Source of the DNA: Rhodoferax sp.
GTDB taxonomy: Bacteria > Pseudomonadota > Gammaproteobacteria > Burkholderiales > Burkholderiaceae_C
Direction: 5' to 3'
NCBI RefSeq assembly: GCF_030653815.1
Contig: NZ_JAURYQ010000003.1
Location: 1-64,000 of the forward strand
DNA length: 64,000 nucleotides
Shown in pieces: positions 3,293 to 57,908 of this stretch. Position 1 is the stretch's first letter. Each line of letters starts with the position of its first letter. The translations under genes and the position numbers were made by a program. The notes under the pieces were generated by a model, which saw only the letters and a program-made list of their open reading frames with translations, ran no database searches and was not told the origin of the DNA.

Positions 3293-3729
3293 GCAATAAC
3301 GTACCCAAGCTTTATTTGCTTGACACCAACATCATTTCACACGCCGTTCGCTATCCACATGCGCCATTGGCCAAGCACATCCAGTTTCTTAGCGCAGGAA
3401 ACCCGACCTGTCTTTGCACAAGCGTCATCGTTGTTTGTGAACTGCAATTCGGCATCACCAAAAGGGATGCGGACCATCTCGCATCGAAAGTTGAAATTTT
3501 GTTGCGATTCATTCGTGTCCTTGAAATTGATAGCCGAGTGATACCGCACTACACCAACACCCGCGCCCACCTGGAACGCCAAGGCACCCCCATCGGCCCC
3601 AACGACATGTTCATCGCCGCCCACGCGCTGGCGCTGGGTGCCACGCTGGTCACTGCAGACGCAGAATTTGCCCGCATTCCCGGGCTCACCGTTGAAAACT
3701 GGTTACTGTCAACCGCGGCACAAAAATGA
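3289..3729 (+). CDS. vapC: VapC-type PIN-domain ribonuclease toxin
   Basis: A 146-residue PIN-domain endoribonuclease, the toxin of the VapBC pair; family members cleave tRNA or rRNA. The acidic metal-binding residues are all present: Asp12 in LLDTNIIS, Glu in VVCELQFG, Asp in GPNDMFIAAHA, and Asp in LVTADAEFARI. It starts with GTG overlapping the vapB stop. The first half is AT-richer than the flanking chromosomal genes, which suggests a transferred module. The motifs are intact, so the toxin looks functional. Confidence 0.9.
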   Translation: MSNNVPKLYLLDTNIISHAVRYPHAPLAKHIQFLSAGNPTCLCTSVIVVCELQFGITKRDADHLASKVEILLRFIRVLEIDSRVIPHYTNTRAHLERQGTPIGPNDMFIAAHALALGATLVTADAEFARIPGLTVENWLLSTAAQK

Positions 3730-3789
3730 ATTCCCAAGCTGGCTAACATCGCGCAAAGTCGTTAGAAAAAACATTACCACGTCCTCTCC

Positions 3790-4503: not shown

Positions 4504-4581
4504 CCGCCGCCATGCACTGCGCACCTCCCGCGCCGGATCCCCTATCATTTGTGTGCCGGTCGTTCCCCGGATCGAGTATTT

Positions 4582-9175: not shown

Positions 9176-10270
9176 ATGGCTCTCGTCCCCTACGCCCTCA
9201 CCCGTCCCTTTTTATTCAGCCTCGACCCCGAAGTTGCCCACGAAGTCACACTGCATTCGCTGGCGCGCACCCAGGGCAACGCCCTGAAATGGGCTTATGG
9301 CAGCACGCGTGTGAACGATCCGGTGGTGCTGGCCGGGCTGAATTTCCCCAACCGGGTCGGCATGGCCGCCGGACTGGACAAAAACGCCCGCTGCATCGAT
9401 GGTCTGGGCGCCATGGGCTTTGGTTTTGTCGAGGTCGGCACCGTCACGCCGCTGGCACAGCCCGGCAACCCCAAGCCACGCATGTTCCGCCTGCCACAGG
9501 CGCAGGCGCTGATCAACCGGCTGGGTTTCAACAATGACGGCTTGGCGGCTTTTATTGCCAACGTGAAGCGCTCCAGGTTGTACCAGACACGCCAGTCCGG
9601 CTCGCCTGACGCCTCGCCCATGCTGCTGGGCCTGAACATTGGCAAAAATGCTGCCACGCCCATCGAGCGCGCCACCGACGACTACCTGACCTGCCTGGAC
9701 GGGGTCTACCCTTACGCCGACTACGTCACGGTCAATATTTCCAGCCCCAACACCAAAAACCTGCGCAGCCTGCAAAGTGACGAGGCGCTGGATGGCTTGC
9801 TGGGCGCCATTTCAGAGCGGCGTGAGGCGCTGGCACTGCAACATGGCAGGCGCATCCCGATCTTCCTCAAAATTGCACCCGACCTGGACGCAGACCAGAT
9901 CCAGGTGATCGCCGAAACCCTGAAACGCTACGGGCTTGACGCGTCTGGCCAAGTCAACAACGCCTGGGGCGTGGTGGCCACCAACACCACCCTGGGCCGC
10001 GAGGCCGTCAAGGGACTGGCCCATGCCGATGAGGCCGGCGGCCTGTCGGGCGCACCGGTGTTGGCCATGAGCAACCAGGTGATCAGCCAGTTGCGCGCCG
10101 CCCTGGGACCGCGGTTCCCGATCATCGGTGTTGGCGGCATCATGAACGCCGAAAATGCGGTGAGCAAAATCAGGGCCGGCGCCGATTTGGTGCAAATCTA
10201 CACCGGCCTGATTTACCAGGGACCCACCTTGGTCAAACAGGCCGCCGCCCTGATCAAGAAAACCTTTTAA
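9176..10270 (+). CDS. pyrD: Dihydroorotate dehydrogenase (quinone), class 2
   Basis: FMN enzyme of pyrimidine synthesis that oxidises dihydroorotate to orotate and passes electrons to the membrane quinone pool. It is 364 residues long, class 2 size. The N-terminal amphipathic helix region leads into [10 protein letters not shown] and the [11 protein letters not shown] substrate region. The catalytic Ser is in [11 protein letters not shown]. The FMN phosphate site is [11 protein letters not shown] and [11 protein letters not shown] near the end. The TAA stop at 10268-10270 lies at the outer edge of the REP-like inverted repeat, so that repeat is probably also its transcription end. Confidence 0.97.
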
Positions 10271-20265: not shown

Positions 20266-21279
20266 TCAGGCTTTTTCGGCATGGACCGACAGCAGGTTTC
20301 TGGCGGCCGTGGAGGCCGCCAGCCGGCCTGTCAGCACGTCTTGGGTCAGCTGAGGCAACAGGGTTTTGACCTGCGGATGCTGGGCAAACGCGGTCTTGAG
20401 GCCGGCGTCGATGCGTTCCCACATCCACGCCAGCGCCTGCTTCTGGCGCCGCACATCAAACTTGCCATTGGCAGTTTGCAGGGCCTTGAACTCAAGCACC
20501 CTGGCCCAAAAGGTATCGACCCCCTGGGCGCGCAAAGCGCTGAGCTGCATGACCTGCGGGTGCCATATTTTTTCATCATGGTGCGCGTGGTCCGGGCTGC
20601 CATGCAGGCCCAGCAAACGCAAGCTGGAGCTGATTTGGGCGCGGGCGCGGGTGGCGGCGTCGGGGTCAATGTCGGCCTTGTTGATGACCACCAGGTCGGC
20701 CAGCTCCATCACGCCTTTCTTGATGGCCTGCAAATCGTCACCCGCATTGGGCAACTGCATCAGCACAAACATGTCGGTCATGTTGGCCACGGCCGTTTCG
20801 CTTTGTCCCACCCCCACGGTTTCCACGATCACCACGTCATAACCCGCCGCCTCGCAAACCAGCATGGCCTCGCGGGTTTTTTCGGCCACGCCACCGAGCG
20901 TGCCGCTGCTGGGGCTGGGGCGGATGTAGGCTTTCTCATGAACGGACAGCAGTTCCATGCGCGTCTTGTCGCCCAGAATCGAGCCCCCCGACACCGTGCT
21001 GGAGGGGTCGATCGTCAGCACCGCCACACGGTGGCCCTGGCCAATCAGGTACAAGCCCAGCGCCTCGATAAAAGTCGATTTGCCCACGCCCGGCACGCCA
21101 CTGATGCCCAAGCGAAACGACTGGCCGGTGTGCGGCAACAGGTTTGTGAGCAACTCGTCGGCCTGCAGGCGGTGGTCAGCCCGGGTGGATTCGAGTAGCG
21201 TGATGGCCTTGGCCATGGCGCGACGCTGCATGGCGGCATCACCCTGCAGCACGGCCTCCACCAGAGCGCCGGGAATCAC
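20266..21279 (-). CDS. meaB: MeaB-type G-protein chaperone of methylmalonyl-CoA mutase
   Basis: A G3E-family GTPase that guards loading and reactivation of adenosylcobalamin in the mutase. The 337-residue protein has Walker [10 protein letters not shown] at 61-69, the DPSS switch [10 protein letters not shown] switch II, and base-recognition motif NKAD. A C-terminal helical dimerisation region follows. The start overlaps the mutase stop (ATGA), so the two are coupled, the usual arrangement for this pair. pccB starts 61 bases downstream. Confidence 0.95.
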
Positions 21280-23453
21280 TTCAGCGCAGCCTTGATTTGC
21301 TTGAGCACATCCTTGGCGCTCACCGGGATCGGCGTGCCGGGGCCGTAAATGCCCTTGACACCGGCGGCATACAGCATGTCGTAGTCCTGGCGCGGGATGA
21401 CACCGCCGACAAACACGATGATGTCGTCGGCGCCCTGCTTCTTGAGCTCGGCAATGATGGCGGGCACCAGCGTCTTGTGGCCGGCAGCCAGCGTGCTGAC
21501 CCCCACGGCATGGACATCGTTCTCAATCGCCTGGCGTGCGCATTCCTCGGGGGTCTGGAACAGCGGCCCCATGTCGACGTCAAAGCCGAGGTCGGCAAAG
21601 GCCGTGGCCACCACCTTGGCACCGCGGTCATGGCCGTCCTGGCCCAACTTGCTGATCATGACGCGCGGGCGGCGGCCTTGCTCGGTGGCAAAGTCGGCGA
21701 TTTCTGCCTTGAGTGCGTTCCAGTAGTCCATGGTGTCCCCGTCGGTGGCGTCGGTATCGTAAGCGGCGGCATACACACCGGTCACTTTTTGCGTGTCGGC
21801 ACGGTGACGGCCAAAGGTTTTTTCCATGGCGTCGCTGATCTCACCCACGGTGGCACGGGCGCGCACTGCCTTGATGCTCAAGTCGAGCAGGTTGCCCTGG
21901 CCACTGGCAGCGGCGGCCTCGATCGCTTCCAGGGCTTGTTGCACTTGCGCGGCATCGCGTTTCTGCTTGATGGCATTGAGCCGGGCGATTTGCGAGTCGC
22001 GCACCGCGACGTTGTCGATGTCACGGGCGTCAATCGCATCCTCGGTTTTGAGCTTGTATTTGTTGACACCCACGATCACGTCGCGGCCGGAGTCGATGCG
22101 CGCCTGCTTGTCGGCCGCAGCTGCCTCGATCTTGAGCTTGGCCCAACCCGAATCCACGGCCTTGGTCATGCCGCCCATGGCTTCGACCTCTTCGATGATG
22201 GTCCAGGCGGCATCAGCCATGTCCTGCGTCAGTTTTTCCATCATGTAGGAACCAGCCCAGGGGTCGATCACGTTGGTGATGTGGGTTTCTTCCTGGATGA
22301 TGAGTTGGGTGTTACGCGCGATGCGCGAACTGAACTCGGTCGGCAGCGCGATGGCCTCGTCGAACGAGTTGGTGTGCAGGCTCTGCGTGCCGCCAAACAC
22401 CGCCGCCATGGCCTCGATGGTGGTACGCACCACGTTGTTATACGGGTCCTGCTCGGTCAGGCTCCAGCCGCTGGTCTGGCAGTGGGTGCGCAACATCAGC
22501 GATTTGGGATTCTTGGCGTTGAAGCCTTTCATGATGCGGCACCACAGCAGGCGCGCGGCGCGCATCTTGGCCACCTCCAAATAGAAGTTCATGCCAATGG
22601 CCCAGAAAAAGCTCAAACGGCCGGCAAAGCCGTCGACATCCATACCCTTGGCAATGGCGGTCTTGACGTACTCCTTGCCGTCAGCCAGCGTGAACGCCAG
22701 TTCCAGCGCCTGGTTGGCGCCAGCTTCCTGCATGTGGTAGCCCGAGATGCTGATCGAGTTGAATTTCGGCATGTGTTTGGCCGTGTACTCGATGATGTCG
22801 CCAATGATGCGCATGCTGGGCTCGGGCGGGTAAATGTAGGTGTTGCGCACCATGAATTCTTTCAGAATGTCGTTCTGAATGGTGCCGCTGAGCTTGTCTT
22901 GTGAAACGCCCTGCTCTTCGGCCGCCACCACATAACCCGCCAGCACCGGCAGCACCGCGCCGTTCATGGTCATCGAGACACTCACCTTGTCGAGCGGGAT
23001 CTGGTCGAACAGGATCTTCATGTCCTCCACCGAGTCGATCGCGACACCGGCCTTGCCGACGTCACCGGTGACACGCGGGTGGTCCGAGTCATAGCCACGG
23101 TGTGTGGCCAGGTCGAACGCCACACTCACACCCTGACCGCCAGCGGCCAGTGCCTTGCGGTAAAAGGCGTTGGACTCTTCGGCGGTGGAAAACCCGGCGT
23201 ACTGGCGAATGGTCCAGGGCCGCACCGCGTACATGGTGGCTTGCGGGCCACGCAGGTAGGGCTCGAAGCCCGGCAGCGTGTTGGCGTAGGGCAGGTTTTT
23301 CGTATCCTCTGCGGTGTATAAAGGCTTGACCGAAATGCCATCGGGCGTGAGCCAATTCAGCGCGCTCACATCCCCCCCAGGCGCAGATTTGGCTGCAGCT
23401 TTGGCCCAGGCCTCCAAGTTCGCTGACTGAAATTCAGGATTTTTTTGGGTCAT
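21276..23453 (-). CDS. scpA: Methylmalonyl-CoA mutase (single chain, adenosylcobalamin)
   Basis: Isomerises (R)-methylmalonyl-CoA and succinyl-CoA. At 725 residues it is the single-polypeptide, homodimeric form. The N-terminal TIM barrel binds acyl-CoA ([17 protein letters not shown]). The C-terminal flavodoxin-like domain binds B12 base-off through DGHDRGA (606-612, His608 the cobalt ligand) with the following Ser/Gly motifs. It is the first gene of the minus-strand operon mutase-meaB-pccB-pccA-VOC. A divergent GntR regulator starts 130 bases away. Confidence 0.95.
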
Positions 23454-44918: not shown

Positions 44919-45077
44919 GATGCCAGATTTGACCTCGAATGAACGCATTATGGGCACGATGTTTGCGTGACTTAGTAGAAACCAACCCCCGCCAAGCGCC
45001 GGCCAGACCGTAGAATCAGTTTTTAATTTTTTATTAACCCGCCGGGCTACGCCCAGGCATTTTTGAGAAAGCTGCTT

Positions 45078-45845
45078 ATGAAAAAACTTCTGCTCGCTGC
45101 TGCCATCAGCGCCTTGTGCGCCTCAAGCTTTGCCCAGGGCAAAGACCTCAAGGTGGCCATCGACGCCACCTACGAACCCTTTACCTTCAAGACCGCTGAC
45201 GGCAAACCCACCGGCTTTGACGTGGATATTGCCAGCGCCTTGTGCGAACAAATCAAGCGCAAATGCGTGTTTGTCGAACAAGCCTGGGACGGCATGATCC
45301 CCGGTCTGCAGGCCAAGAAATACGACGTCATCATCAGCTCGATGTCGATCACCGCAGACCGCCTGAAAGTGGTGGACTTTACCGACAAGTACTACAACAC
45401 CCCCAGCAAACTCGTGCTGAAAAAGGACATCAAGTTTGACGGCCCAGCCTCCATCAAAGGCAAAAAGATTGGCGTGCTGAAAGCCAGCACCCAGGAAAAA
45501 TATGCCTTGGGCGAGCTCAAGACCAAGGGTGTGGAAGTGGTGTCGTATGACGCCCAGGACCAGGTCTACCTGGACATCAAGGCCGGCCGTCTGGACGGCA
45601 CCGTGGCTGACGTGATGGAAGTCGGTGGCGGCTTCCTGGACAAGCCGGGCGCTGAAAACTACCATTTCGTCGGTGAAGAACTCTACATTCCGAAGTACTT
45701 CGGTACCGGTGCCGGCGTCGCTTTACGCAAAGGCCAGGGCGACCTCAAAAAAGAACTCAACGCGGCCATTGTGGCCATTCGCGCCAATGGCAAGTACAAG
45801 GCCATCAACGACAAGTACTTCAAGTTTGACGTTTACGGCAAGTAA
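45078..45845 (+). CDS. argT: Periplasmic polar amino acid binding protein (Lys/Arg/Orn type)
   Basis: A 255-residue solute-binding protein of family 3. Signal peptide at 1-20 (MKKLLLAAAISALCASSFAQ), then two lobes: IDATYEPFTFKTADGKPTGFD starts lobe I, the hinge region is SSMSITADRLKVVDFTDKYY, and the Asp-containing binding segment DGTVADVMEVG lies in lobe II. It is most like the LAO/HisJ/ArgT group, so lysine is a plausible ligand; the lysine-catabolic operon 3.4 kb away supports this. ATG 45078 is preferred over a TTG at 45063. It is followed by the two permeases. Confidence 0.9.
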   Translation: MKKLLLAAAISALCASSFAQGKDLKVAIDATYEPFTFKTADGKPTGFDVDIASALCEQIKRKCVFVEQAWDGMIPGLQAKKYDVIISSMSITADRLKVVDFTDKYYNTPSKLVLKKDIKFDGPASIKGKKIGVLKASTQEKYALGELKTKGVEVVSYDAQDQVYLDIKAGRLDGTVADVMEVGGGFLDKPGAENYHFVGEELYIPKYFGTGAGVALRKGQGDLKKELNAAIVAIRANGKYKAINDKYFKFDVYGK

Positions 45846-45905
45846 TTCATCCGCAAACAGCCGGCCTTCTGAGCACGCGCGCAGGGCCGGTTGACTGGCG
45901 CCTCC

Positions 45906-46604
45906 ATGACATCCACCACGCAGTCCTACCTTCTTGTGATCTTGCAGGGCTCCCTGCTCACGGTTGGCGTGTCGCTGGGCGCGCTGCTGGTGGCTATCGT
46001 CCTGGGCTTGGCCGGTGCTGCCGCCAAGCTCTCGGGACGCCCGGTGCTGGTGGCGGTGGGCACCTTTTACACCACCATCATTCGCGGCATCCCGGACCTG
46101 GTGCTGATGCTGCTGGTGTTTTACGGTGGCACCATCGGCATCAACACCTTGCTTGAAAAGATGGGCAGTGAGGCCACCATCGACATCGAACCCTTTGCCG
46201 CCGGCGTCATTACCATCGGCTTCATCTACGGCGCCTACATGACCGAGACCTTTCGCGGCGCCATTCTGAGCATTCCCAAAGGCCAGATGGAAGCCGCCTG
46301 GGCCTTTGGCATGAGCCGCTCGCAAACCTTCCTGCGCATCACGCTGCCGCAAATGGTGCGCTACGCCCTGCCCGGCTTCACCAACAACTGGCTGGTGCTG
46401 ATCAAGTCCACCGCGCTGGTGAGCCTGATCGGCTTGCAGGAAATGACCTATCTGGCCAAGCAGGCCAGCGCCGCCACCCGCTCGCCTTTTGCCTTCTTTT
46501 TGTTCACCGGCGCCTTGTTTCTGGTCTACACCTCGATCAGCCTGGTGGCTCTGAAAAAGCTCAACGCCCGCTACAGCCTGGGTACGAAAAAGGTGCAGCT
46601 GTAA
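45906..46604 (+). CDS. hisQ: Amino acid ABC permease (HisQ type)
   Basis: A 232-residue permease of the HisMQ group with about five membrane helices and the EAA loop MEAAWAFGMSRSQTFLRITLPQM, which docks the ATPase. It follows argT by 60 bases; its stop (TAATG) overlaps the next permease start, so the two are coupled. ATG 45906 is preferred; a TTG at 45891 is possible. Confidence 0.9.
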   Translation: MTSTTQSYLLVILQGSLLTVGVSLGALLVAIVLGLAGAAAKLSGRPVLVAVGTFYTTIIRGIPDLVLMLLVFYGGTIGINTLLEKMGSEATIDIEPFAAGVITIGFIYGAYMTETFRGAILSIPKGQMEAAWAFGMSRSQTFLRITLPQMVRYALPGFTNNWLVLIKSTALVSLIGLQEMTYLAKQASAATRSPFAFFLFTGALFLVYTSISLVALKKLNARYSLGTKKVQL

Positions 46605-47317
46605 TGGAATGGGCCGTCATTTTCGAGCCCGATAACCTGGCCCTGTTTGGCAACGGGATGGTCATCACGCTGTGGTTGTTGTTTTCGTCGCTGGCCGTGG
46701 GGGCCGTGCTGGCGCTCATTTTTGCCCTGATGCTGACCGGCCCGTGGGCGCCGCTGCGCTGGCTGGTCGGTGCCTACACCTTTGTGATTCGCGGCACGCC
46801 GCTGCTGATTCAGGTCTATCTGATCTATTACGGTCTGGGTCAATTGGAGTGGATTCAGGCGCGTTGGGACTCGGTCTGGCCCTGGACGCATTTCAAGGAA
46901 CCTTTCTTTTGCGCGCTGCTGGCCTTCAGCCTGAACACCGCCGGCTACACCGCCGAGATGCTGGCAGGCGCCATCCGCGAGACCAGCGCCGGCGAAATTG
47001 AGGCCGCCCACGCTTACGGCATGAACCGCTTCCAGACCATGCTGCGGGTGGTGCTGCCCAGCGCCATGCGCCGCACCCTGCCCGCTTACAGCAACGAGGT
47101 GGTGATGATGCTGCATGCCACCAGCCTGGCCAGCGCGGTGCCCAACATGCTCGACGTGACCTCGGCAGCGAGCCGAATTTATGCCACCTACTATCTGCCG
47201 TTCGAGGCTTATCTGGCCGCCGCCGCCATTTACCTCGCGGCGTCGTTTTGCCTGATCGGCTTTTTCCGCTTCTCCGAGGGGCGTCTGCTGGCGTACCTGT
47301 CGCCGCGCAGAGATTGA
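46604..47317 (+). CDS. hisM: Amino acid ABC permease (HisM type)
   Basis: A 237-residue partner permease with helices around 15-45, 55-85, 95-115, 150-170 and 200-225, and EAA loop IEAAHAYGMNRFQTMLRVVLPSA. Its start overlaps the hisQ stop by one base. HisQ/HisM heterodimers carry histidine, lysine, arginine and ornithine. Eighteen bases later comes the AstE-like gene rather than the ATPase, an insertion within the transporter operon. Confidence 0.92.
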   Translation: MEWAVIFEPDNLALFGNGMVITLWLLFSSLAVGAVLALIFALMLTGPWAPLRWLVGAYTFVIRGTPLLIQVYLIYYGLGQLEWIQARWDSVWPWTHFKEPFFCALLAFSLNTAGYTAEMLAGAIRETSAGEIEAAHAYGMNRFQTMLRVVLPSAMRRTLPAYSNEVVMMLHATSLASAVPNMLDVTSAASRIYATYYLPFEAYLAAAAIYLAASFCLIGFFRFSEGRLLAYLSPRRD

Positions 47318-47335
47318 CACAAAAACTGTTGAACC

Positions 47336-48466
47336 ATGCAACGCATTGACCACCCGCTGCTCTCGCCCAGCCTGGGCAGCCATAAAGCCCTGACCAGTTT
47401 TCACTTTGGTCAGCCCGGACGCGTCCGCAAGATTTATATCCAGGCCAGCCTGCACGCCGAGGAGTTGCCCGGCATGTTGGTGGCGCACCATTTGCGCGCG
47501 CTGTTTGACACCTTGGAAGCGGCCGGGCACATCCACGGCGAAATTGTGCTGGTGCCGGTGGCCAACCCGATCGGTCTGGCGCAGCGGCTGGACCACAAAC
47601 CCATGGGCCGCTTTGAGCTGGACACCTCGGAAAACTTCAACCGCCATTACCCCGACCTGGCTGCCGCCGTGGCACCGGTTGTCGTCACTCAGCTGGGTGA
47701 CAACGCGGTGACCAATGTGGCTTTGGTGCGTCAGGCCATGCGGAACCACCTGCAACAATGGGCGCCTGCCACCGAACTGCAAAGCCTGCGCCGCACCCTG
47801 TTGCTGCTGGCGCATGATGCCGACTTCATGCTGGATTTGCATTGCGACTGCGAAGGGGTGCTGCACTTCTACACCGAGGAGGCCTGCTGGTCCCAGATGC
47901 AGGAACTGGCGCACTTCTTGGGCGCACAGGCGATTTTGCTGGCCAAAAGCTCGGGCAACCGACCCATCGACGAATGCCTGTCGGGTGCCTGGTGGCAACT
48001 GGCTGACCGGCTCAAGGCCCGCGGGCTGGACGTGCCCCTGCCGCAAGCCTGCTGCAGCACCACCATCGAGTTGCGTGGCGAGCTGGACGTCAGCCACGCC
48101 TGGGCGGCCACCGATGCGCAGGCCATCGTAAGCTGGCTACAGTTCATCGGCGTCTTGGCCTGCCCGCAGCCCCCCGAAGTGCCCGCGCCCCGCTGCGCTG
48201 CCACGCCGCTGGCAGGCTCGCAAACTCTGACAGCCCCCAGCCCCGGCATCGTGGTGTTTGCCGCCGAAGTGGGCCAGCAGTTGCAGGTGGGTGATCTGGT
48301 CGTCGAAATCATTGACCCCATTGCCAACACCACGCAGCGCATCACGGCCGGTGTTGCCGGTGTGCTTTATGCGCGCATTCGCGACCGCTACATCACCGCC
48401 GGCGGTGAACTCGGCAAAATTGCCGGCGCCACGGCTTTTCGCAGCGGCGAACTGCTGGGTGCCTGA
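47336..48466 (+). CDS. Succinylglutamate desuccinylase/aspartoacylase-family (AstE-like) hydrolase
   Basis: A 376-residue M14-fold zinc hydrolase. Zinc ligands are His/Glu in SLHAEELPG (residues about 39-47) and His in LDLHCD (about 164-169). The catalytic Glu is in [10 protein letters not shown]. The C-terminal about 80 residues fold like a biotinyl/lipoyl beta-barrel ([21 protein letters not shown]), as in other AstE-like proteins. It sits between hisM and hisP, so it probably deacylates an imported N-acyl amino acid, for instance acyl-lysine; this is inferred from position only. Confidence 0.82.
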
Positions 48467-48474
48467 GGATTGAT

Positions 48475-49251
<777 letters not shown>

Positions 49252-49254
49252 GGA

Positions 49255-50067
49255 TCAGCTCAGGCCGAGCATTGCACGGGCCTCATCGGGTGTGGCGACA
49301 GGCCGGTCCAATTCCTGGCTGATGCGGGCCATGCGCGCCACCAATTGCGCATTGCTGGTGGCGAGTTCCCCCTTGCGGTAATACACGTTGTCCTCAAAAC
49401 CCACACGCACATGGCCGCCCAGCACGATGGCCAGTGTGCCCAGTGGCAGTTGCGCCGGGCCGATGCCGGCCACGGTCCAACTGGACTGCGCCGGCAACTG
49501 GGACCGCAGGTACATCAGCGCCTCGGGCGTGCCGGCCATGCCACCAGGAATGCCCAGCACAAAGTCGAAATGCTGCGGGCCACTCAGCAGGCCTTTTTTC
49601 AGCCAACGTTGCGCGGTGCTCAGCATGCCGGAATCAAAAATCTCCAGCTCGGGTTTCACGCCATGGTCACGCATGGCCGCGGCAAACATTTCCATCTCGG
49701 CCGGCGGGTTCATGAACACGTCGCCACCAAAGTTGACCGAGCCCATGGACAGCGTCGCCATCTCCGGTTTGAGGGTGAGCGGGGCCAGGCGCTCCTGCGG
49801 CGTCATGCCCACGGCACCGCCGGTGGACACCTGAACGATCACGTTGCAGCGCGCCTTGACCGCCGCAATGATCTGGCGATACATCTCCTTGTCCTGTGTC
49901 GGCGTGCCATCGGGCAAGCGAGCGTGCACATGGACCATGGCCGCCCCAGCCTGGGCGCATGCATAGGCCGCGTCGGCAATTTCCTCCGGCGAGATGGGCA
50001 AGGCTGGTTGCTGTGCGCGGGTCACTTCGGCACCGGTCAACGCGGCCGTGATGATGAGCTTGTTCAT
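49255..50067 (-). CDS. kce: 3-Keto-5-aminohexanoate cleavage enzyme (BKACE)
   Basis: Splits 3-keto-5-aminohexanoate with acetyl-CoA into acetoacetate and 3-aminobutyryl-CoA, step 4 of the lysine route. The 270-residue TIM-barrel protein has the zinc motif HVHAR (His46, His48) and the N-terminal TGAEVT loop whose Glu14 is a zinc ligand. FDSGML, IPGGMAGTPE and GGHVRVGFEDNVY are the family's substrate and CoA regions. BKACE proteins vary in substrate, but next to kal, kamD and kamE true Kce is the best call. I start at ATG 50067, one base after the kal stop. It is the last gene of the operon. Confidence 0.92.
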   Translation of the reverse strand: MNKLIITAALTGAEVTRAQQPALPISPEEIADAAYACAQAGAAMVHVHARLPDGTPTQDKEMYRQIIAAVKARCNVIVQVSTGGAVGMTPQERLAPLTLKPEMATLSMGSVNFGGDVFMNPPAEMEMFAAAMRDHGVKPELEIFDSGMLSTAQRWLKKGLLSGPQHFDFVLGIPGGMAGTPEALMYLRSQLPAQSSWTVAGIGPAQLPLGTLAIVLGGHVRVGFEDNVYYRKGELATSNAQLVARMARISQELDRPVATPDEARAMLGLS

Positions 50068-50068
50068 G

Positions 50069-50482
50069 TCAGCAGGTGATGGTGGGGTGCGTGATGCGCT
50101 GACACGCGGCGGGTACCACGCAGGTGCCTGAGGCCTGGCATACCAGGATCGGCTCGGCCAGCACATCGGCCGCAGACGCCTGACCGGCGACACCGGCCGA
50201 GGCAATGACCTTGCGCGCTTCAAAGGCCATCGTGCGCGAGGTCTTGCCCATGGCCACGATGCGACCGGTGGCCTCGATGTAGTCACCTGCGTAGACCGGC
50301 GCCAGAAACTGCACGCTGTCATAGGCCACAAACAGACCTTCGTCGCCATCGCTGCGAATCAGCAACTCGGTGGCCACGTCGCCAAACAGGTGCAGCATTT
50401 TGGCGCCGTCGACCAGGCCGCCGGCGTAATGGGCGTCATGTGCACTGATGCGCAGGCGGATCAAGCTGGTGTAGTTTTCCAT
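50069..50482 (-). CDS. kal: 3-Aminobutyryl-CoA ammonia-lyase
   Basis: Removes ammonia from 3-aminobutyryl-CoA to give crotonyl-CoA, the last dedicated step of the pathway. A 137-residue hotdog-fold protein: [30 protein letters not shown] carries the Asp/His-rich substrate helix, and [19 protein letters not shown] the central strands. I start at ATG 50482 with AAGGA upstream; the longer frame to 50569 has no family sequence. It lies ten bases below kamE and one base above kce. Confidence 0.9.
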
Positions 50483-50492
50483 GTTCTTTCCT

Positions 50493-51242
50493 TCAATGTC
50501 TTTTGATCCACTCATGAATGGCAAAAGAGGCCACGTCCTCGGCATAACTCTTGACGCCAAAACCGGCATCGTAGCCCAGTTCCTTGGCCAGCTCGTGGCT
50601 GATCCGCGGTCCGCCCACCACCAAAATCACCTTGTCGCGCAGCCCCTCGGCTTCCAGCAAATCAGCAAGTTTGGTCAGGTTGTCGAGGTGGATGTTCTTT
50701 TGCGTCACCACCTGCGACACCAAAATCACGTCGGCGTTTTCTTCAATCGCACGCGTCACCAGGTCTTCGGAGTCCACCTGCGCGCCCAGGTTGATGGCGC
50801 GGATCTCGTGGTAACTCTCCAGCCCCTTGTGGCCGTTGTAGCCCTTCATGTTCATGATGGCGTCAATGCCCACGGTGTGGGCGTCGGTCTCGATGCACGC
50901 GCCGACCACCACCATGCGCCGTTTCATTTTTTCGGCGATCAGCGCGTTGATGCCATCCTTGTCCATCACCTCGTACTCGGGCTTGACCACCGTGTAGCTG
51001 TTCAGGTCGACCTGGTGTTTGCACTGACCATAGACCACGTAAAAGCTGAAACCCTGGCCCATGTCCTCGCAGTGCACCACCGCCGGCTCGTCCAGCCCCA
51101 TTTGCGCTGCCAGACGTTTGGCACCCTCCTTGGCGCGCTCATCCAGTGCGACCGGCAGGGTGAACGAGAGCTGCACGCGGCCGTCACCGAGCGTGTCGCC
51201 GTAGGGCTTGACCCATTGTTCGGGTTGTTTGGTTTCAAGCAT
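50493..51242 (-). CDS. kamE: Lysine 5,6-aminomutase beta subunit (B12/PLP)
   Basis: Small subunit of the AdoCbl- and PLP-dependent mutase that moves the epsilon-amino group of beta-lysine to C5. The 249-residue protein has the base-off cobalamin motif DAHTVG (120-125, His122 the cobalt ligand). Lys133 (NMKGYNG) aligns with the PLP-binding Lys144 of the Clostridium sticklandii beta subunit, keeping the same spacing from the B12 His. Its start overlaps kamD by eight bases. The conserved loop [20 protein letters not shown] is at the C-terminal side. Confidence 0.94.
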
Positions 51243-52794
51243 GGTCTGCTCCTTGAGTTGGCAGCATCAGTTCAGGGAACGGGTTGAAGTAGTCAGGTGC
51301 TTTGGCGATCACGCCATCGAGTCCCTTGCCTCCGCTCGGCGTGCGCGAAATTTCGGCAAACAGGCCCTTGCCAATGGCGCCCGGCAGACCTGTGGCCTCG
51401 ATCTCGGCCAGCATGGTCTCCGCTTGTGCCAGCACTTCCTGGGCACGTTGCTCGATCTTGCCGCCGCGCTTGAATTCAATTTCCGAGTGCAGATCCTTCA
51501 TGGTGCCAAACACGTACCGGGCGTTCTGGATCGCCAGAAAACGGTCGTGGATGAAGGGCGTGTGGATGGCCTCGGTCATCATGCCCAGCAGGTGGATGTT
51601 CTGGTTGGTGACGGTGCTCACGATGTTGAACAGCGCGTCCTGCACATGGCCCTTGAAGATATTGCCGGTCATGTGTTTGGTGGGCGGCATGTATTTCAGG
51701 CAGGCCTCGGGAAAGACCTGGCGCACCAGTTGCGCATGCGCCAGTTCCCACAAAAAGCCGTTTTCCAGCTCCGGATGAATCTCGAAGGCATGGCCCAGGC
51801 CCATCTGTTCCGGCTTCAGTCCCGACAACCCGGCAAACTGCTCGTTGATGAGCTGTGACGCCAGCACCGTGTGCGCCGCCTCAAAGGCGTCCGCCGTGGT
51901 GAGGTAATTGTCTTCGCCGGTGTTGATGATGATGCCCGCATAGGCATTGACCATGCGCGAAAAAAACTGGTCGATGAAGGTGCGCTTCATGTTGATGTCG
52001 CGAAAGATGATGCCGTACATCGCGTCGTTAAGCATCATGTCGAGCCGCTCGATGGCGCCCATGGCGGCAATCTCGGGCATGCACAGGCCCGAGCAGTAAT
52101 TGGTCAGGCGGATGTAGCGGCCCAGCCGGTTGCCGACCTCGTCCAGCGCGGCGCGCATCAGCCGGAAGTTTTCCTGCGTGGCATAGGTGCCGCCAAAACC
52201 CTCGGTGGTGGCGCCATGGGGCACGTAGTCGAGCAGGCTCTGGCCGGTGGAACGGATCACCGCAATGATGTCGGCCCCCTGCTCGGCGGCGGCACGGGCC
52301 TGCACCACGTCTTCATGGATGTTGCCGGTGGCCACGATCAGGTAGAGCCAGGGCGTTGGGGCTTCGCCGCTGTTCTTGATTTTCTCGGTGCGCTGGGCGC
52401 GCTGCGCGGCAATGTGGTCACACATGGTGCGGGCCTGCGCCTGCGCGCAAACGCGGGCCGCAGTTTCATCGTCAGGGCGCGCCAAGGTCAGGCTGCCGCT
52501 TGCCACGGCCTCGGCGACCTGTTGCGCCGTCAGGCCAAGCTTTTCCATGGCACCCGCCAGCACTGTGGCGGCACCGTGCTGCAGCAGATTTTGATCCTGC
52601 AAATGGCTGACCAGCCGATTGGGCAGCGGGACGCCGACCTCGTCGACACCGTCCACCCCCATGAGGCGCAGCGTGGCACGCTCCACGGTGGTGGTGGTGA
52701 AGCCCGACATGTCGTCAAAGACCTGGCGCGCAATGCGTCGTGCCGAATCGCGGGCGCGGTCAATTTGCGCCTGGTCCAGGTTCAAGTGGCTCAT
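51235..52794 (-). CDS. kamD: Lysine 5,6-aminomutase alpha subunit
   Basis: Large (519-residue) TIM-barrel subunit that holds the substrate and partners with KamE to form 3,5-diaminohexanoate from beta-lysine. Family stretches are LRLMGVDGVDEVGVPLPNR, STGQSLLDYVPHGATTEGFGGTYATQENF (about 190-220), RLTNYCSGLCMPEIAAMGA and FRDINMKRTFIDQFFSR. The order kamD then kamE with overlap is as in Clostridia. Its first four bases overlap the upstream P-loop gene, so translation is coupled. Confidence 0.94.
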   Translation of the reverse strand: MSHLNLDQAQIDRARDSARRIARQVFDDMSGFTTTTVERATLRLMGVDGVDEVGVPLPNRLVSHLQDQNLLQHGAATVLAGAMEKLGLTAQQVAEAVASGSLTLARPDDETAARVCAQAQARTMCDHIAAQRAQRTEKIKNSGEAPTPWLYLIVATGNIHEDVVQARAAAEQGADIIAVIRSTGQSLLDYVPHGATTEGFGGTYATQENFRLMRAALDEVGNRLGRYIRLTNYCSGLCMPEIAAMGAIERLDMMLNDAMYGIIFRDINMKRTFIDQFFSRMVNAYAGIIINTGEDNYLTTADAFEAAHTVLASQLINEQFAGLSGLKPEQMGLGHAFEIHPELENGFLWELAHAQLVRQVFPEACLKYMPPTKHMTGNIFKGHVQDALFNIVSTVTNQNIHLLGMMTEAIHTPFIHDRFLAIQNARYVFGTMKDLHSEIEFKRGGKIEQRAQEVLAQAETMLAEIEATGLPGAIGKGLFAEISRTPSGGKGLDGVIAKAPDYFNPFPELMLPTQGADHA

Positions 52795-53864
52795 ATTGCT
52801 TCCTTGGTTTCATTCATTGTGTTCTCCAACATCACATCGCTGACGCCATAACCCACAAAGGCGGCGCGAGCGATCTCCAAAAATTCGGTGGCATCAAAAC
52901 TCCCGCCCAGGGGTGAAAACGGATTGAGCGTGATGCCGGTCATGTGGATGCCACGGTAGGCCATCAGGCGCGCGCCCTGCTTGTCAAATGCTGTCAGATC
53001 GGCCGCCTCGACAAACAGGCGCGTGCCATCGTTAACCACCACGCGCAGTCCCGGCTTGTGGTTTGCCAGTGTCACCAGCGCGCGCCACAGGGAGCGGCCC
53101 ACTGCGCCGCTGAGCGCCACCGTGGCCACATCGGCCTGCTGGTGCTGCAGCAAAGTGGCGGCCGCGTTCAGCGTCGCGATCTCGGCCAGCAGCAGGGGCT
53201 GGCCCGCGCTGTTCCACAGGCCCACGCCACCCCGCGCAAAAACAGGTTCGCACAGGCGGCGCGTGGCCTCGTCGGCTTGCGGGATGCCCAAAATGGCCAG
53301 GCGGTCGCGTGTCTTGCGGATCACGTCGCCCATGCCGCCGCCGATGGCGGCACCGGTCGCCAGAATCACGCCGTTGGCAACGGCCGGCGAGGCATGGTGG
53401 CTGCGCCCCAGCGCGCCGTCCAGCATCACCAGCGTGGCGCCACATTGCTTGAGGCGGGCAATCACGGTGAGCTGGTCCGAACTGCGCGAGGCACCGGCAA
53501 TTTCCATCTCGCCGTGCTCCAGCACCTTGACCACCAGGATTTCACCCATCGGGCTGTCGATGCTGGTGGCAGCGATAAGTTTGGTGCGCACCTTGGCGCG
53601 CTCCAAGGTGGAACGCGCGGTGGCCACCAGGTTGCCAGGCCACACCACAATGGCTGGCTTGGGTACAAAAAACACCGCATCGCGATCTTCCCCGTCACGC
53701 CCGATCGACGTAACCCCGAGCGCCACGCCAGATGCCGCAGCCTGCGCCAACAAGTGGTTCAGCGCCACTGTTTTCCCGGTGTTCTTGGTCATGCCCATGA
53801 CGGCCAGCGTGCTCATGCCACTGGCCTGGATGCGTTGCCACAGCGGGCTTTGTCCTGCGGTCAT
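52791..53864 (-). CDS. P-loop protein of the lysine aminomutase operon (KamB-like candidate)
   Basis: A 357-residue protein with a P-loop GMTKNTGKT at 24-32 in the G3E/NTPase-like context AVMGMTKNTGKTVALNHLL, then GRDGEDRD (switch-like) and VMLDGALGRS. There is no recognisable membrane segment. In fermenting bacteria the lysine 5,6-aminomutase is accompanied by KamB/KamC-type proteins thought to reactivate it. The position directly above kamD with overlaps at both ends, and the P-loop, make a KamB-like reactivase the best guess. No second MutS-like KamC gene is present here. Confidence 0.65.
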   Translation of the reverse strand: MTAGQSPLWQRIQASGMSTLAVMGMTKNTGKTVALNHLLAQAAASGVALGVTSIGRDGEDRDAVFFVPKPAIVVWPGNLVATARSTLERAKVRTKLIAATSIDSPMGEILVVKVLEHGEMEIAGASRSSDQLTVIARLKQCGATLVMLDGALGRSHHASPAVANGVILATGAAIGGGMGDVIRKTRDRLAILGIPQADEATRRLCEPVFARGGVGLWNSAGQPLLLAEIATLNAAATLLQHQQADVATVALSGAVGRSLWRALVTLANHKPGLRVVVNDGTRLFVEAADLTAFDKQGARLMAYRGIHMTGITLNPFSPLGGSFDATEFLEIARAAFVGYGVSDVMLENTMNETKEAI

Positions 53865-54898
53865 ACGTAGAGTTGTTCAAACAGGGCGCGCAGCTTGGCA
53901 CTCTCGCGCAGCAGGTTCAGCGCAAATTCGGCGTGCCCGGTGGCATAGCCGTTGCCCACGATCATTTCCACATCCTTGCCCACGCCCTCCGCGCCCAGCG
54001 CGGCTGCGGTGAAGCTGGTCGCCATGGAAAAGAAGTAAATCTTGCCGTGCTGTTTCGTGGCCAGGATGCTGCCCATCTCGGTGTTTTGAATGTTGACACA
54101 GTTGATCACCACGTCGGCCAGCTTGCCGCCGGTCACCTTTGATACAGCGTCCATCAAGGCCAATGCGTCGGTGGCATCCACCTGCAGCGCATGATCGACC
54201 CAGCCCAGATCAAGCATGCGCTGGCAATCCTTGGCAAATGGCGACACGCCGATCACACAACCACCCGCACCCGCGCGCTTTTTGGCCTCATAAACACACA
54301 GCGTGCCTGACTTGCCACCGCCGCCAATCACCACCACGGTGTCGCCCTCCTTGACCAGACGGGCCGTCTGGGCCGGAGCCCCGGCGACATCCAGAATGGC
54401 CAGCGCCAGCTTTTTGTCGATGTCCGCAGGCAGTTTGGCGTACAGACCGGTTTCGAACAGGATGGCGCGGCCCTTGATCTCGATCTGGTCCTTGTCCATA
54501 TGGATCTTGGTGATTTCGTCAATGCGCAAGGGAGTGAGTGACAGCGACACCAGCGTGGCGATCCTGTCGCCCACCTTCAGGTCGATCTTGCCGAGCAAGG
54601 CCGGGCCGATCTGGGCCACCGTGCCAATCAGCATGCCGCCCGACCCGGTCACCGGGTTGTGGTGTTTGCCGCGCCGGGCCACGATGTCCTTGACCATGGC
54701 TGCCACGGCGGCTTCGTCGCTGCCGGTGGCGCTTTTGATCTGGGTGAAACTGGCCGAGTCGATGTTGAGCGCCGACACGTCAATCAGGATCTCGTTGTCA
54801 TAAATGGCCATGGTGTTGTCGAGCTTCCAGGCGGGCTGGGGCAACACGCCAAGCGGTTCGAGCACACGGTGTGTGCCGTAGGGGGAGCCGTGTTTCAT
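53861..54898 (-). CDS. kdd: L-erythro-3,5-diaminohexanoate dehydrogenase
   Basis: NAD(P)-dependent oxidation of 3,5-diaminohexanoate to 5-amino-3-oxohexanoate with loss of ammonia. The 345-residue protein has an MDR-like architecture: N-terminal substrate domain and a nucleotide domain with VVVIGGGGKSGTL (about 188-200). Family stretches include GSPYGTHRVLEPLGVLPQPAWKLDN and NPVTGSGGMLIGTVAQIGP. I start at ATG 54898, two bases after the kamA stop; the frame open to 54979 lies inside kamA. The end overlaps the P-loop gene by four bases. Confidence 0.92.
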   Translation of the reverse strand: MKHGSPYGTHRVLEPLGVLPQPAWKLDNTMAIYDNEILIDVSALNIDSASFTQIKSATGSDEAAVAAMVKDIVARRGKHHNPVTGSGGMLIGTVAQIGPALLGKIDLKVGDRIATLVSLSLTPLRIDEITKIHMDKDQIEIKGRAILFETGLYAKLPADIDKKLALAILDVAGAPAQTARLVKEGDTVVVIGGGGKSGTLCVYEAKKRAGAGGCVIGVSPFAKDCQRMLDLGWVDHALQVDATDALALMDAVSKVTGGKLADVVINCVNIQNTEMGSILATKQHGKIYFFSMATSFTAAALGAEGVGKDVEMIVGNGYATGHAEFALNLLRESAKLRALFEQLYV

Positions 54899-54900
54899 GG

Positions 54901-56082
54901 TTAATTGCTCACACTGGGCAGACTGAAGTCCTGCCCCAGGCCAGGCATTTCGACCGTTTTGCCGGCGTAGTTGCGGCACTTCACCGTGGTGCCACTGCCA
55001 TCGGGCAAGGCTTCTTCGCGCACATAACTCGGGATAATCGGCAACTTGCCCAGGCCACCCAGGCCATCGACGATAAAGGTGGGCACGGCCGGGCCGCTGA
55101 TCCAGCCGCGCAGACCTTCGTACAGTTCGAGCATGCGGCGGTGCGGCACGATGAAATGGTGCGCACCTTCGACCATGTCGGTCGAATACACGTAATAGGG
55201 ACGCACGCCCATCTCGACGCTTTGCATGAACAGCTCGCGCATCACTTCGACGCTGTCATTCACGCCCTTGAGGCACACGGTTTGCAGCCCCATCATGATG
55301 CCGGCCTTCTGCAACATCTTGACACGCTGGCGAAGCAGCGGCGTGATTTCCTTGGGGTGGTTGATGTGGATATTGACCATCTGCACGCGGTGACGCTCCA
55401 GCACCGCGCAGAGTTCGGCCGTGACACGCGTGGGCAATTGCACCACCATGCGCGAGCCGATGCGCAGGAAGCGCACATGCGGTGCCCGGCTGCGGATCAT
55501 GCCCAGGATTTCGTCGAGGCGCTCGTCGGTGAAGGTCAGCGGGTCGCCGCCGGACAACAACACGTCTTCGATGTTCTTGTTGTTGGCAATGTAGTCGATC
55601 GATGCCTCGATTTCGTCCTTGTGCACCGAGCCGGAAGGCTGCGACACCATGCGCTTGCGGGTGCAGAAACGGCACAGCGTGGCGCAGGTGTTGCTCACCA
55701 GAAACAACACCCGACGCGGGTAACGGTGCACGATGCTGGTGCCGGGAATGGTGTCACCCTCCTCCCCCAACTGGTCGAGCATGGTGGCAAAGCCGGGCTT
55801 GGTTTCCTCATGAAACGACGGCAGGTACTGCATGCGGATCGGGCAATTGGGGTCGTTGCGGTCCATCAGCCGGGCCATGTAGGGCGTGACCGCAATCGCG
55901 AACTTGTTGTAAACGGTGTCGTTGACGTCCTCGACATGGTTCAACACGCCCTTCAGTTGCGCATGGTGGGTGTAACGCCTGGCAAACTGCTTCTGCCAGG
56001 ACTCGGACTCCGGGTCGTAGGCTTGCAGTTCGTCATAACTCATGAAAACTTTGGGGGTGGCGAATTCGACGGCTTGCAGCAT
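54901..56082 (-). CDS. kamA: Lysine 2,3-aminomutase (radical SAM)
   Basis: First enzyme of the route, L-lysine to L-beta-lysine. A 393-residue radical-SAM PLP enzyme: 4Fe-4S cysteines Cys133, Cys137 and Cys140 in CATLCRFC, and the PLP Lys346 in GGLGKLPII. Two Asp candidates for binding the lysine epsilon-amine are present (YSTDMVEG and Asp339 in IVDGLGG), as in the clostridial enzyme. EF-P-type EpmB proteins are shorter and lack these, so catabolic KamA is the better call, and the operon supports it. It is the first gene, transcribed away from the Lrp-type gene. Confidence 0.95.
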   Translation of the reverse strand: MLQAVEFATPKVFMSYDELQAYDPESESWQKQFARRYTHHAQLKGVLNHVEDVNDTVYNKFAIAVTPYMARLMDRNDPNCPIRMQYLPSFHEETKPGFATMLDQLGEEGDTIPGTSIVHRYPRRVLFLVSNTCATLCRFCTRKRMVSQPSGSVHKDEIEASIDYIANNKNIEDVLLSGGDPLTFTDERLDEILGMIRSRAPHVRFLRIGSRMVVQLPTRVTAELCAVLERHRVQMVNIHINHPKEITPLLRQRVKMLQKAGIMMGLQTVCLKGVNDSVEVMRELFMQSVEMGVRPYYVYSTDMVEGAHHFIVPHRRMLELYEGLRGWISGPAVPTFIVDGLGGLGKLPIIPSYVREEALPDGSGTTVKCRNYAGKTVEMPGLGQDFSLPSVSN

Positions 56083-56132
56083 GGGAGGTCTCCTGATTGG
56101 TGGTTCAAGTCTATGGAGTCACGCCGCCGCTG

Positions 56133-56187
56133 AAAACAAGCAAATCGCCTGAAATTAATGTGAAAATTCAGTCATATTGCTTGTTTT
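56133..56187. promoter_or_regulatory. Inverted repeat in the kamA/lrp divergent promoter
   Basis: AAAACAAGCAA at 56133-56143 and its exact complement at 56177-56187, with 33 bases between, so arm centres are 44 bases apart (about four helical turns). Inside lies a weaker CTGAAATT...AAATTCAG palindrome (about 56149-56172). The whole gap is AT-rich and only 114 bases long. Spacing and divergent position suit binding by the adjacent Lrp/AsnC protein, which could control both genes. Confidence 0.6.
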
Positions 56188-56196: not shown

Positions 56197-56655
56197 ATGA
56201 CTCATCCACCTCAAAAACCCAATCTTGACGCGCTGGATTACCAATTGATCGAACTGCTCAAGGTCAATGCCCGGTTGCCCATGGTCAACCTGGCCAAGGC
56301 CCTGGGTTGTGCGCGCAGCACCGCCCAACTGCGGCTCAAGGCACTGGAAGACGCTGGCGTCATCACCGGTTATACCGTGGGCGTCAGCAGCCCGCGCGTG
56401 TCCCGTGGCTTGCGGGCCATGGTGCTGATTTCGATGGAATCCCAGAACGAGCCCGACGTGGTGCGCGCGCTGTCCAAGCGGCATGAAATCACCAAGCTGT
56501 ACTCGGTCAGTGGCCGCTACGACCTGTGCGCCATGCTGCTCACTGAATCGACCCAGGAACTCGATGCGGTGCTGGACAAAATTCGCGTCATCAAGGGCGT
56601 GGTGGACACGTTTTCAACCATCATGCTGTCGACCAAGCTCGACCGGCCCGAGTGA
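56197..56655 (+). CDS. Lrp/AsnC-family transcriptional regulator
   Basis: A 152-residue feast/famine regulator: N-terminal helix-turn-helix (residues 10-60; LDYQLIELLKVNARLPMVNLAKALGCARSTAQLRLKALEDAGVI split as usual) and C-terminal RAM ligand-binding domain (about 70-145, with TKLYSVSGRYDLCAML and the Gly-rich turn). Divergent from kamA, with the inverted repeat between them; lysine or another amino acid is the likely effector. Conservation of the RAM core suggests an active sensor. It may also control the importer and the cyclodeaminase gene. Confidence 0.9.
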   Translation: MTHPPQKPNLDALDYQLIELLKVNARLPMVNLAKALGCARSTAQLRLKALEDAGVITGYTVGVSSPRVSRGLRAMVLISMESQNEPDVVRALSKRHEITKLYSVSGRYDLCAMLLTESTQELDAVLDKIRVIKGVVDTFSTIMLSTKLDRPE

Positions 56656-56810: not shown

Positions 56811-57908
56811 ATGAAACTCCCTCAACTCGTCCAAACCCAATTTCTCAGCGTCCAGGACGTGGCCACCATCATCAACAAGATGGGCCTCAAAACTGTGTTC
56901 ATGCGCATGGCCGACTACATCCGCGCCGACTACCTGCGCTGGCACGATTTTGAAAAATGCGCCCGTGTGGCCAACCACTCGAAAGACGGCGTGATCGAAT
57001 TGATGCCGATCTCGGATGCCAAAAGTTACGCTTTCAAGTACGTCAACGGCCACCCCAAGAACACCATCAACGGCCTGCCCTGCGTGATGGCCTTTGGCGT
57101 GCTGGCCGATGTCGACACCGGCATTCCCGAATTCCTCAGTGAGTTGACCCTCAGCACGGCTTTGCGCACGGCGGCCATGTCGGCGGTGGCAGCGCAGGAA
57201 CTGGCGCGCCCTGACAGCAAATCAATGGCCTTGATCGGCAACGGCGCCCAGAGCGAATTCCAGGCGCTGGCGTTCCACTACCTGCTCGGCATCGAGGAAC
57301 TCCGTCTGTTCGACACCGACCCCAAGGCCACGGAAAAGCTGATCGCCAACCTGAAGTCAACGGCGCTGCGCCTGACGGTGTGCAGCAGCATTGCTGAGGC
57401 CGTGCGTGGTGCCGACATCGTGACCACCGTGACCGCAGACAAGACCAATGCCGCCATCCTGACCGCCGAAGATATTGAGGCCGGCATGCACATCAATGGC
57501 GTGGGTGGCGACTGCCCGGGCAAAACCGAACTGCATTCCGACGTGTTGCACCGCAGCGCGGTGTTTGTCGAGTACGAGCCGCAAACCCGTATCGAGGGCG
57601 ACTTGCAACACCTGCCGGCTGATTTTGAAGTCACTGAGCTCTGGCAGGTGCTGGCGCGCCAGGCCCCCGGTCGCCGTGACGCCGACCAGATCACGCTGTT
57701 TGATTCGGTCGGTTTCGCCTTGCAGGACTACTCCGCCCTGCGCTTCATGCGGGACGCCGCCAGGGAACTCGGCCTGGGCCAGGTGGTGTCGCTGATTCCC
57801 GAACTGGTCAACCCGAAAGACCTGTTCGTGTTGATTCACCCGGAAAACCATGAAGCTTCCAAGTCGCGTCAGCACCCGGATTTTTGCGCCATACTCGCAG
57901 CTGCCTGA
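56811..57908 (+). CDS. Ornithine cyclodeaminase / mu-crystallin-family protein
   Basis: A 365-residue NAD-binding protein of the OCD family: substrate loop FMRMADYI, conserved Lys/Asp in the first domain, and Rossmann motif ALIGNGAQSEFQ (about 139-150). GMHINGVGGDCPGKTELHSDVL follows. OCD converts ornithine to proline plus ammonia; lysine cyclodeaminase (to pipecolate) is in the same family. Its place beside Lrp and the lysine operon makes lysine or ornithine the expected substrate, but the choice cannot be made from sequence. The start of the AttH-like gene follows after 16 bases. Confidence 0.85.
   Translation: MKLPQLVQTQFLSVQDVATIINKMGLKTVFMRMADYIRADYLRWHDFEKCARVANHSKDGVIELMPISDAKSYAFKYVNGHPKNTINGLPCVMAFGVLADVDTGIPEFLSELTLSTALRTAAMSAVAAQELARPDSKSMALIGNGAQSEFQALAFHYLLGIEELRLFDTDPKATEKLIANLKSTALRLTVCSSIAEAVRGADIVTTVTADKTNAAILTAEDIEAGMHINGVGGDCPGKTELHSDVLHRSAVFVEYEPQTRIEGDLQHLPADFEVTELWQVLARQAPGRRDADQITLFDSVGFALQDYSALRFMRDAARELGLGQVVSLIPELVNPKDLFVLIHPENHEASKSRQHPDFCAILAAA

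Follow-up and report, generated by a model that had tools for sequence, protein, structure and literature searches.

The 64,000-nucleotide stretch of Rhodoferax sp. analysed here (positions 1 to 64,000 of contig NZ_JAURYQ010000003.1; hereafter the window) carries on its minus strand, at 49255-56082, an operon of seven genes arranged head to tail as kamA-kdd-kamB-kamD-kamE-kal-kce, which very probably allows a respiring betaproteobacterium to break down L-lysine without an oxygenase, to crotonyl-coenzyme A (CoA) and acetoacetate and then to acetyl-CoA. An earlier note on this DNA had placed kamA, kdd, kamD, kamE, kal and kce here, which is confirmed, and had read them as the 3,5-diaminohexanoate pathway, possibly put to aerobic or facultative use in a respiring host. 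Pathway and respiring host are both supported, but that reading was incomplete, as it left kamB unnamed and missed the occurrence of KamB without KamC, the position of KamA in a separate clade of truncated proteins and the recurrence of the operon in many betaproteobacteria.

The operon and the proposed pathway

Six of the seven products score above the equivalog cut-offs of NCBIfam, with KamA below, which supports the identity of the pathway. These six are encoded by kdd, for L-erythro-3,5-diaminohexanoate dehydrogenase (53861-54898; NF052381, 238.8 bits, cut-off 200), kamB, for the lysine 5,6-aminomutase reactivase subunit (52791-53864; NF052386, 322.3 bits, cut-off 210), kamD (51235-52794; NF052384, 859.4 bits, cut-off 600), kamE (50493-51242; NF052385, 392.3 bits, cut-off 280), kal, for 3-aminobutyryl-CoA ammonia lyase (50069-50482; NF052388, 191.3 bits, cut-off 160) and kce (49255-50067; NF052387, 426.2 bits, cut-off 382), the scoring having used starts at 54814 for kdd and 50076 for kce. 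KamDE, Kdd, Kce and Kal, which together (with Kat as an alternative to Kal) define membership of the 3,5-diaminohexanoate lysine pathway, are encoded side by side. The seventh gene, kamA (54901-56082), encodes a KamA-family radical S-adenosylmethionine (SAM) protein (TIGR00238), a predicted L-lysine 2,3-aminomutase of a truncated type that lacks the C-terminal CxCxxC tail. Solved relatives agree with these identities, namely lysine 2,3-aminomutase 2A5H, lysine 5,6-aminomutase 8T0V (KamD, E 6.5e-210) and 9Q1A, 3,5-diaminohexanoate dehydrogenase 7DL3 (E 1.1e-112), the Kce structure 2Y7D (E 6.4e-90) and beta-alanyl-CoA:ammonia lyase 4MTU (Kal, E 6.9e-24). The motifs, described before as intact, are so wherever catalytic residues were inspected, in KamA and KamE and, through alignment to solved relatives, in the other enzymes. 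The B12-ligand histidine and the pyridoxal 5'-phosphate (PLP) lysine of KamE (roles as given in the available part of PMC3958899) keep their positions in 96 of 96 aligned rows, some of which come from the same genome.

A scan of genome contigs with KamD yielded at least 566 confirmed stretches, of which the best 80 were kept. Among these, 22 carry Pseudomonadota titles (75-87% identity; Rhodoferax, Paucibacter, Aromatoleum, Accumulibacter, Dechloromonas, Aquabacterium and one Sphingomonadales bin) and 57 belong to Bacillota, Bacteroidota and Lokiarchaeota (59-65% identity), while L029, on a contig binned as Negativicutes, combines a KamD of 71% identity with the gene order of the betaproteobacterial (beta-type) operons. 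From 20 of the 23 such loci (three duplicates being dropped) and nine genomes of the host family, 29 external loci were assembled, 23 of which hold the same eight-gene block of a divergent lrp followed by kamA-kdd-kamB-kamD-kamE-kal-kce; because the order is the same in so many related loci, a chance assembly of the genes is excluded. Five of the other six end at contig ends and one, the Sphingomonadales locus L031, is without kamB. The block is present also in records not labelled as metagenome-assembled genomes, from Paucibacter, Aromatoleum and Dechloromonas.

In the proposed route, KamA would presumably convert lysine to beta-lysine, which KamDE, a B12- and PLP-dependent enzyme presumably kept active by KamB, would turn into 3,5-diaminohexanoate. 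Kdd would oxidise the latter to 3-keto-5-aminohexanoate with release of ammonia, In an exchange of this product with acetyl-CoA, Kce would form acetoacetate and 3-aminobutyryl-CoA. From the latter, Kal would remove a second ammonia and so yield crotonyl-CoA. Crotonyl-CoA would most likely enter beta-oxidation and acetoacetate would most likely be activated by a 3-oxoacid CoA-transferase. With flux in this direction, lysine would end as about three acetyl-CoA plus reduced nicotinamide adenine dinucleotide (NADH), oxidised with oxygen or nitrate, and not as butyrate. Judged from known chemistry, the balance per lysine would amount to three acetyl-CoA net (Kce uses one and four are formed), two ammonia and two NADH, with no oxygenase and no loss of carbon.

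A separate, truncated KamA

KamA passes the subfamily model TIGR00238 (267.2 bits, cut-off 199.2) and is the only match to it in its own genome. Its best model is lysine 2,3-aminomutase TIGR03820, whose cut-off it does not reach (320.6 versus 525.4 bits) and which is closely followed by the models for glutamate (303.8) and arginine (287.3) 2,3-aminomutase; the EpmB/YjeK model TIGR03821 gives 217.5 bits, below its cut-off of 369.3. Elsewhere TIGR03820 scores 322.4 bits for the Sphingomonadales locus, 629.5 for Bacillota locus L036 and 600.6 for Lokiarchaeota locus L034. In the alignment to 2A5H, Cys125, Cys129, Cys132, Arg134, Asp293, Asp330 and Lys337 are kept, among them the cluster cysteines, the PLP lysine and the two substrate aspartates. 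All 80 rows of the wider alignment retain these residues (26 beta-type, 35 Bacillota or Lokiarchaeota operon proteins and 19 other Pseudomonadota KamA-like proteins); since the 19 others keep them too, this argues for an intact active site and not for lysine specificity. The C-terminal CxCxxC motif is found in none of the 26 beta-type proteins (393-417 amino acids with scripted starts), in 30 of the 35 Bacillota and Lokiarchaeota proteins and in none of the 19 others, and Cys268, replaced throughout the beta-type, is distributed likewise (0/26, 33/35 and 0/19).

The 80-row tree, which includes the very long row L125, recovers the beta-type rows as a single clade (support 100/100). Removal of L125 and L123 and thinning by 18 rows gave a second, 60-row tree with support from the Shimodaira-Hasegawa-like approximate likelihood ratio test (SH-aLRT) only, in which a branch sets each of the three groups apart (100 for the beta-type, 98 for the others and 91, not starred, for Bacillota and Lokiarchaeota). 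Mean paths are 5.5 from the beta-type to the Bacillota and Lokiarchaeota group, 6.8 from the beta-type to the others and 4.2 between the two groups that are not beta-type. Divergence was compared for 24 beta-type operons, that of the window among them, and 13 Bacillota loci complete for the seven genes. The ratio of the between-group to the within-group mean reaches 3.98 in KamA, against 1.66-2.50 in the six remaining genes. KamA may have been displaced by a different member of its family, or it may have changed in a single burst along the stem; the pattern fits both readings. Among the matches listed from 299 phylum genomes, those from genomes other than the own reach at most 45% identity to KamA. 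A structure model from the single sequence was useless (predicted local distance difference test, pLDDT, 37.7), and one from nine sequences (pLDDT 63.1) has 2A5H as top structural match, weak support given the low confidence of the model.

For the pathway, likely function and family membership coincide. For KamA they diverge: it most likely works as a lysine 2,3-aminomutase, yet departs from that family in two of the features that define it. It could instead act on another substrate or make (R)-beta-lysine, the operon serving to degrade imported beta-lysine or a related diamino acid, which we consider improbable. Such a role would suit the separate clade, the mean identity of 40% to the KamA of Bacillota operons and the missing C-terminal tail, a feature shared with YjeK (EpmB), which lacks the multimerisation domain and makes (R)-beta-lysine (available part of PMC2821294). 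The fixed linkage to KamDE, Kdd, Kce and Kal argues for lysine instead, as does the rank of TIGR03820 as best model, and the conservation of Arg134, Asp293, Asp330 and Lys337 in 26 of 26 beta-type proteins points the same way without proving specificity, as these residues are also kept in 19 of 19 other KamA-like proteins. More speculative, and in our view rather doubtful, is a wider proposal that these proteins form a third KamA subfamily, EpmB-like in truncation yet catabolic, which displaced the clostridial lysine 2,3-aminomutase in an ancestor of this operon. Together with an upkeep of the B12 mutase free of KamC, such a subfamily would enable respiring and even aerobic cells to use an oxygen-sensitive lysine route that feeds acetyl-CoA or polyhydroxybutyrate. 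The probabilities given to these explanations may overlap, because what KamA acts on is in part a different question from which pathway the operon encodes.

Host respiration and other lysine routes

The own genome (3.57 Mb, 98.3% complete, 44 contigs) contains three matches to haem-copper oxidase subunit I and a full-length match to NarG, in accordance with the respiring host proposed before. The quinone-type PyrD gene cited in its favour is present in the window (9176-10270), as is a gene for methylmalonyl-CoA mutase (21276-23453), a B12-dependent enzyme. Host genes were surveyed in 18 of the genomes found to carry the operon. Haem-copper oxidase subunit I occurs in all 18, with none in one clostridial genome tested, NarG is above cut-off in 10, own included, subunit B of 3-oxoacid CoA-transferase (TIGR02428) is above cut-off in 15, own included, and CobS is present in 12, again with the own genome among them.

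Some observations weigh against the proposed route. Besides the score of KamA below the lysine cut-off and the nearly equal scores of the glutamate and arginine models, no CoA-transferase is above cut-off in three of the 18 genomes, CobS is absent from six, and a gene of the Orn/Lys/Arg decarboxylase family is present in 17, own included, so that lysine may also be decarboxylated. The previous statement that no cadaverine route is seen holds for the window alone, as the genome has a gene of this family at 54410-55747 of contig C42; with 613.2 bits for the LdcC model and 607.8 for the arginine model, neither over cut-off, the scores do not separate lysine from arginine. In favour of the proposed route, CsiD was found in none of the 18 genomes, and the C-terminal domain of saccharopine dehydrogenase in six, not including the own.

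Oxygen sensitivity is an established property of radical SAM and B12 radical enzymes and could favour a classical lysine fermentation to butyrate and acetate that operates only when any electron acceptor is missing and in which the respiratory genes would play no part. The fermentation route moreover uses the same enzymes in its first five steps (NCBIfam; available part of PMC3149608). Respiratory oxidases in all 18 hosts tested speak against it, as does, weakly, the failure to recognise a butyrate-forming gene among the recurring open reading frame groups beside the operon, which were read and not scanned for families, the genomes not being searched. We regard a purely fermentative use as quite unlikely, more so than a different KamA substrate.

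KamB without KamC

The ATPase that partners KamB, KamC (NF052383), scores above cut-off in four of four Bacillota genomes and in none of 26 beta-type records (23 distinct genomes), own genome included, so that of the two subunits of a KamBC reactivase only KamB was found. A KamC elsewhere in the genome was considered and rejected: matches below cut-off appear in 25 of the 26 records, at 157-175 bits and in frames of 856-1003 amino acids, the size of MutS; one beta-type record has no match at all, and a 19-bit match occurs in two records of the same genome. With KamC below cut-off, KamB may need no partner or use one other than KamC, or it may not belong to a reactivase of two parts. The gene keeps the same place in 23 of the 29 related loci. 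At the Sphingomonadales locus (L031, 7129-13549) no kamB lies between kdd and kamD, the operon being where it was searched, and no KamC is above cut-off in the genome; the reactivase may be dispensable there.

Distribution and gene order in relatives

KamD is rare, being present in 10 of 399 genomes of the host family, own included, and in two of the five members of the host genus within that sample. In a sample of 398 genomes of the phylum it was found in two, the own genome and G434. The latter has a divergent KamDE pair (L106, 9667-12092; 49 and 38% identity) with no other kam match on the 20 kb fetched, its lone KamD-like protein nevertheless scoring above the KamD cut-off (675.2 versus 600); the pair may act on another substrate. 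In a quick KamD tree the beta-type rows and L029 form one clade (SH-aLRT 98, branch 0.46). L029 shows at 1-5600 the end of kamB followed by kamD-kamE-kal-kce of the beta type, with 69-77% identity from kamD to kce and 44% in kamB, which points to transfer or misbinning. Spread by plasmids was examined and rejected, as a tblastn search of 72,556 plasmid records with KamD matched only Acetoanaerobium and Fusobacterium, both chromosome-sized.

An assembly artefact or a foreign contig in a betaproteobacterial bin, for which the 44 contigs of the host genome might speak, is negligibly probable given that a congeneric genome in a single contig (G121) and named-strain records carry the operon too, that the G+C content of the operon blocks (0.597-0.648) falls inside the window range (0.573-0.668) and that a MutS-like gene and a proline transfer RNA gene lie on the same contig. 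Compared with the near relative L013, DNA identity is 77-80% in parts of kamD (window 51000-52799) and 90% in kamA; the operon may be mosaic in origin.

In 16 Bacillota loci, by contrast, kamD is preceded upstream by kal-kce-kdd-kamA. Fervidicella (L036) has kamB and kamC inserted between kamA and kamD, with kal and kce downstream on the other strand and a gene for a sigma54-type activator before kdd. Three Bacilli loci (L046, L048 and L072; Thermoactinomyces, Hazenella and Alicyclobacillus) read kdd-kamA-kamB-kamC-kamD-kamE, with no kal or kce match on the fetched stretch and with a gene before kdd that resembles, by eye, the activator of Fervidicella; all three genera are known to be aerobic. 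Bins of Bacteroidales or Bacteroidetes (L059, L060, L069, L074-L076, L084 and L088-L091) hold kamD-kamE, with no kamA, kdd, kal or kce match on about 21 kb fetched.

Neighbouring genes and regulation

As noted before, an Lrp regulator and an amino acid importer adjoin the operon. The Lrp/AsnC-family gene (56197-56655, plus strand; PF01037, PF13404) is divergent from kamA, and its product has LysM as best NCBIfam model (93.2 bits, below the cut-off of 180); a divergent lrp precedes kamA in the 23 complete loci as well as in L025 and L031. Beyond it follows ornithine cyclodeaminase (56811-57908, plus strand; NF005762, 555.1 bits, cut-off 350), a neighbour outside the operon with a match near four of the 23 complete loci, whose flank lengths differ. 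The convergent importer (45063-49251, plus strand) is an ATP-binding cassette system for polar or basic amino acids with a binding protein (TIGR01096, 247.3 bits, slightly below the cut-off of 256.35), two permeases and an ATPase, for which HisQ, HisM and HisP are the best models, all under cut-off. It could possibly supply lysine as an optional partner; as a fixed part of the operon it was rejected, a permease match occurring near four of the 23 complete loci with flanks of differing length. Between a permease gene and the ATPase gene lies an AstE/AspA-type hydrolase (47336-48466; PF24827), for which tblastn gave no match in the related loci examined. In L012 and L020 an arginase lies close to the operon.

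Alignment of 26 lrp-kamA intergenic regions, window included, shows sites upstream of kamA on the minus strand (56108-56174), in the window TGACTGA at 56168-56174, TTCAGGCGATTTGC at 56140-56153 and the -10-like hexamer TAGACT at 56108-56113. Similarly spaced in most regions are TGACtGA, a site resembling TTCAgnCAnTTTGC and a hexamer resembling CTAnACT. TGACYGA was counted in 19 of the 26 versus 0.47 expected and CTARAMT in 20 versus 0.46, the expectations coming from shuffles that do not remove the relatedness of the sequences; the window matches TGACYGA and has the hexamer and the second site only as variants. Strict combined patterns match six and nine of the 26 regions and the second-site pattern alone nine, the window being in none; a strict two-half-site regulator pattern, which fits six regions and not the window, was rejected. 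A sigma-70 scan upstream of kamA gave no promoter-like site. The divergent Lrp-type protein would probably control kamA by binding at these intergenic sites.

Significance and comparison with known systems

The operon is a real and recurrent variant of a known pathway, present in respiring bacteria and, as far as searched, undescribed. Among the papers listed in literature searches none was recognised as describing it in betaproteobacteria, and the available parts of PMC6449761, PMC12069332, PMC11961710 and PMC12531142 do not describe it; the genome list of Kreimeyer 2007 may include relatives. Should the proposed route be correct, respiring proteobacteria would gain a way to degrade lysine without an oxygenase, some of them in genera common in wastewater (Accumulibacter, Dechloromonas and Rhodoferax). 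With its distinct first enzyme and without KamC, the operon is a clear target for testing how an oxygen-sensitive lysine route works in respiring cells. It also allows a natural test of the need for KamC in reactivating lysine 5,6-aminomutase, and it would break the split between full-length catabolic KamA and truncated enzymes for elongation factor P (EF-P) drawn in the available part of PMC2821294.

With lysine 2,3-aminomutase (AblA/KamA, 2A5H), the KamA of the window shares the radical SAM core and the substrate and PLP residues, but it has about 40% identity, falls below the TIGR03820 cut-off, lacks the CxCxxC tail and has Cys268 replaced as in all 26 beta-type proteins. The truncated beta-lysine mutase for EF-P, EpmB/YjeK, is likewise without the C-terminal multimerisation domain, whereas the present protein is encoded in a degradation operon and scores below the TIGR03821 cut-off. 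Of the KamB-KamC reactivase of lysine 5,6-aminomutase, KamB is shared and KamC is not over cut-off in the own genome. The Kat variant of lysine fermentation (available part of PMC3149608) varies the same route, Kat replacing Kal there while Kal is present here. The lysine fermentation pathway of Clostridium sticklandii and Fusobacterium nucleatum (kdd, kce, kal) shares the enzymes of the first five steps, with mean identities to 13 Bacillota operons of 70% for Kal, 61% for KamD, 57% for Kdd, 53% for KamE, 52% for Kce, 40% for KamA and 30% for KamB. The operon of the window differs from the clostridial pathway in its other fixed gene order, its other KamA clade, the absence of KamC and its respiring host, and it has an Lrp gene with conserved upstream sites where Fervidicella has a sigma54-type activator gene.

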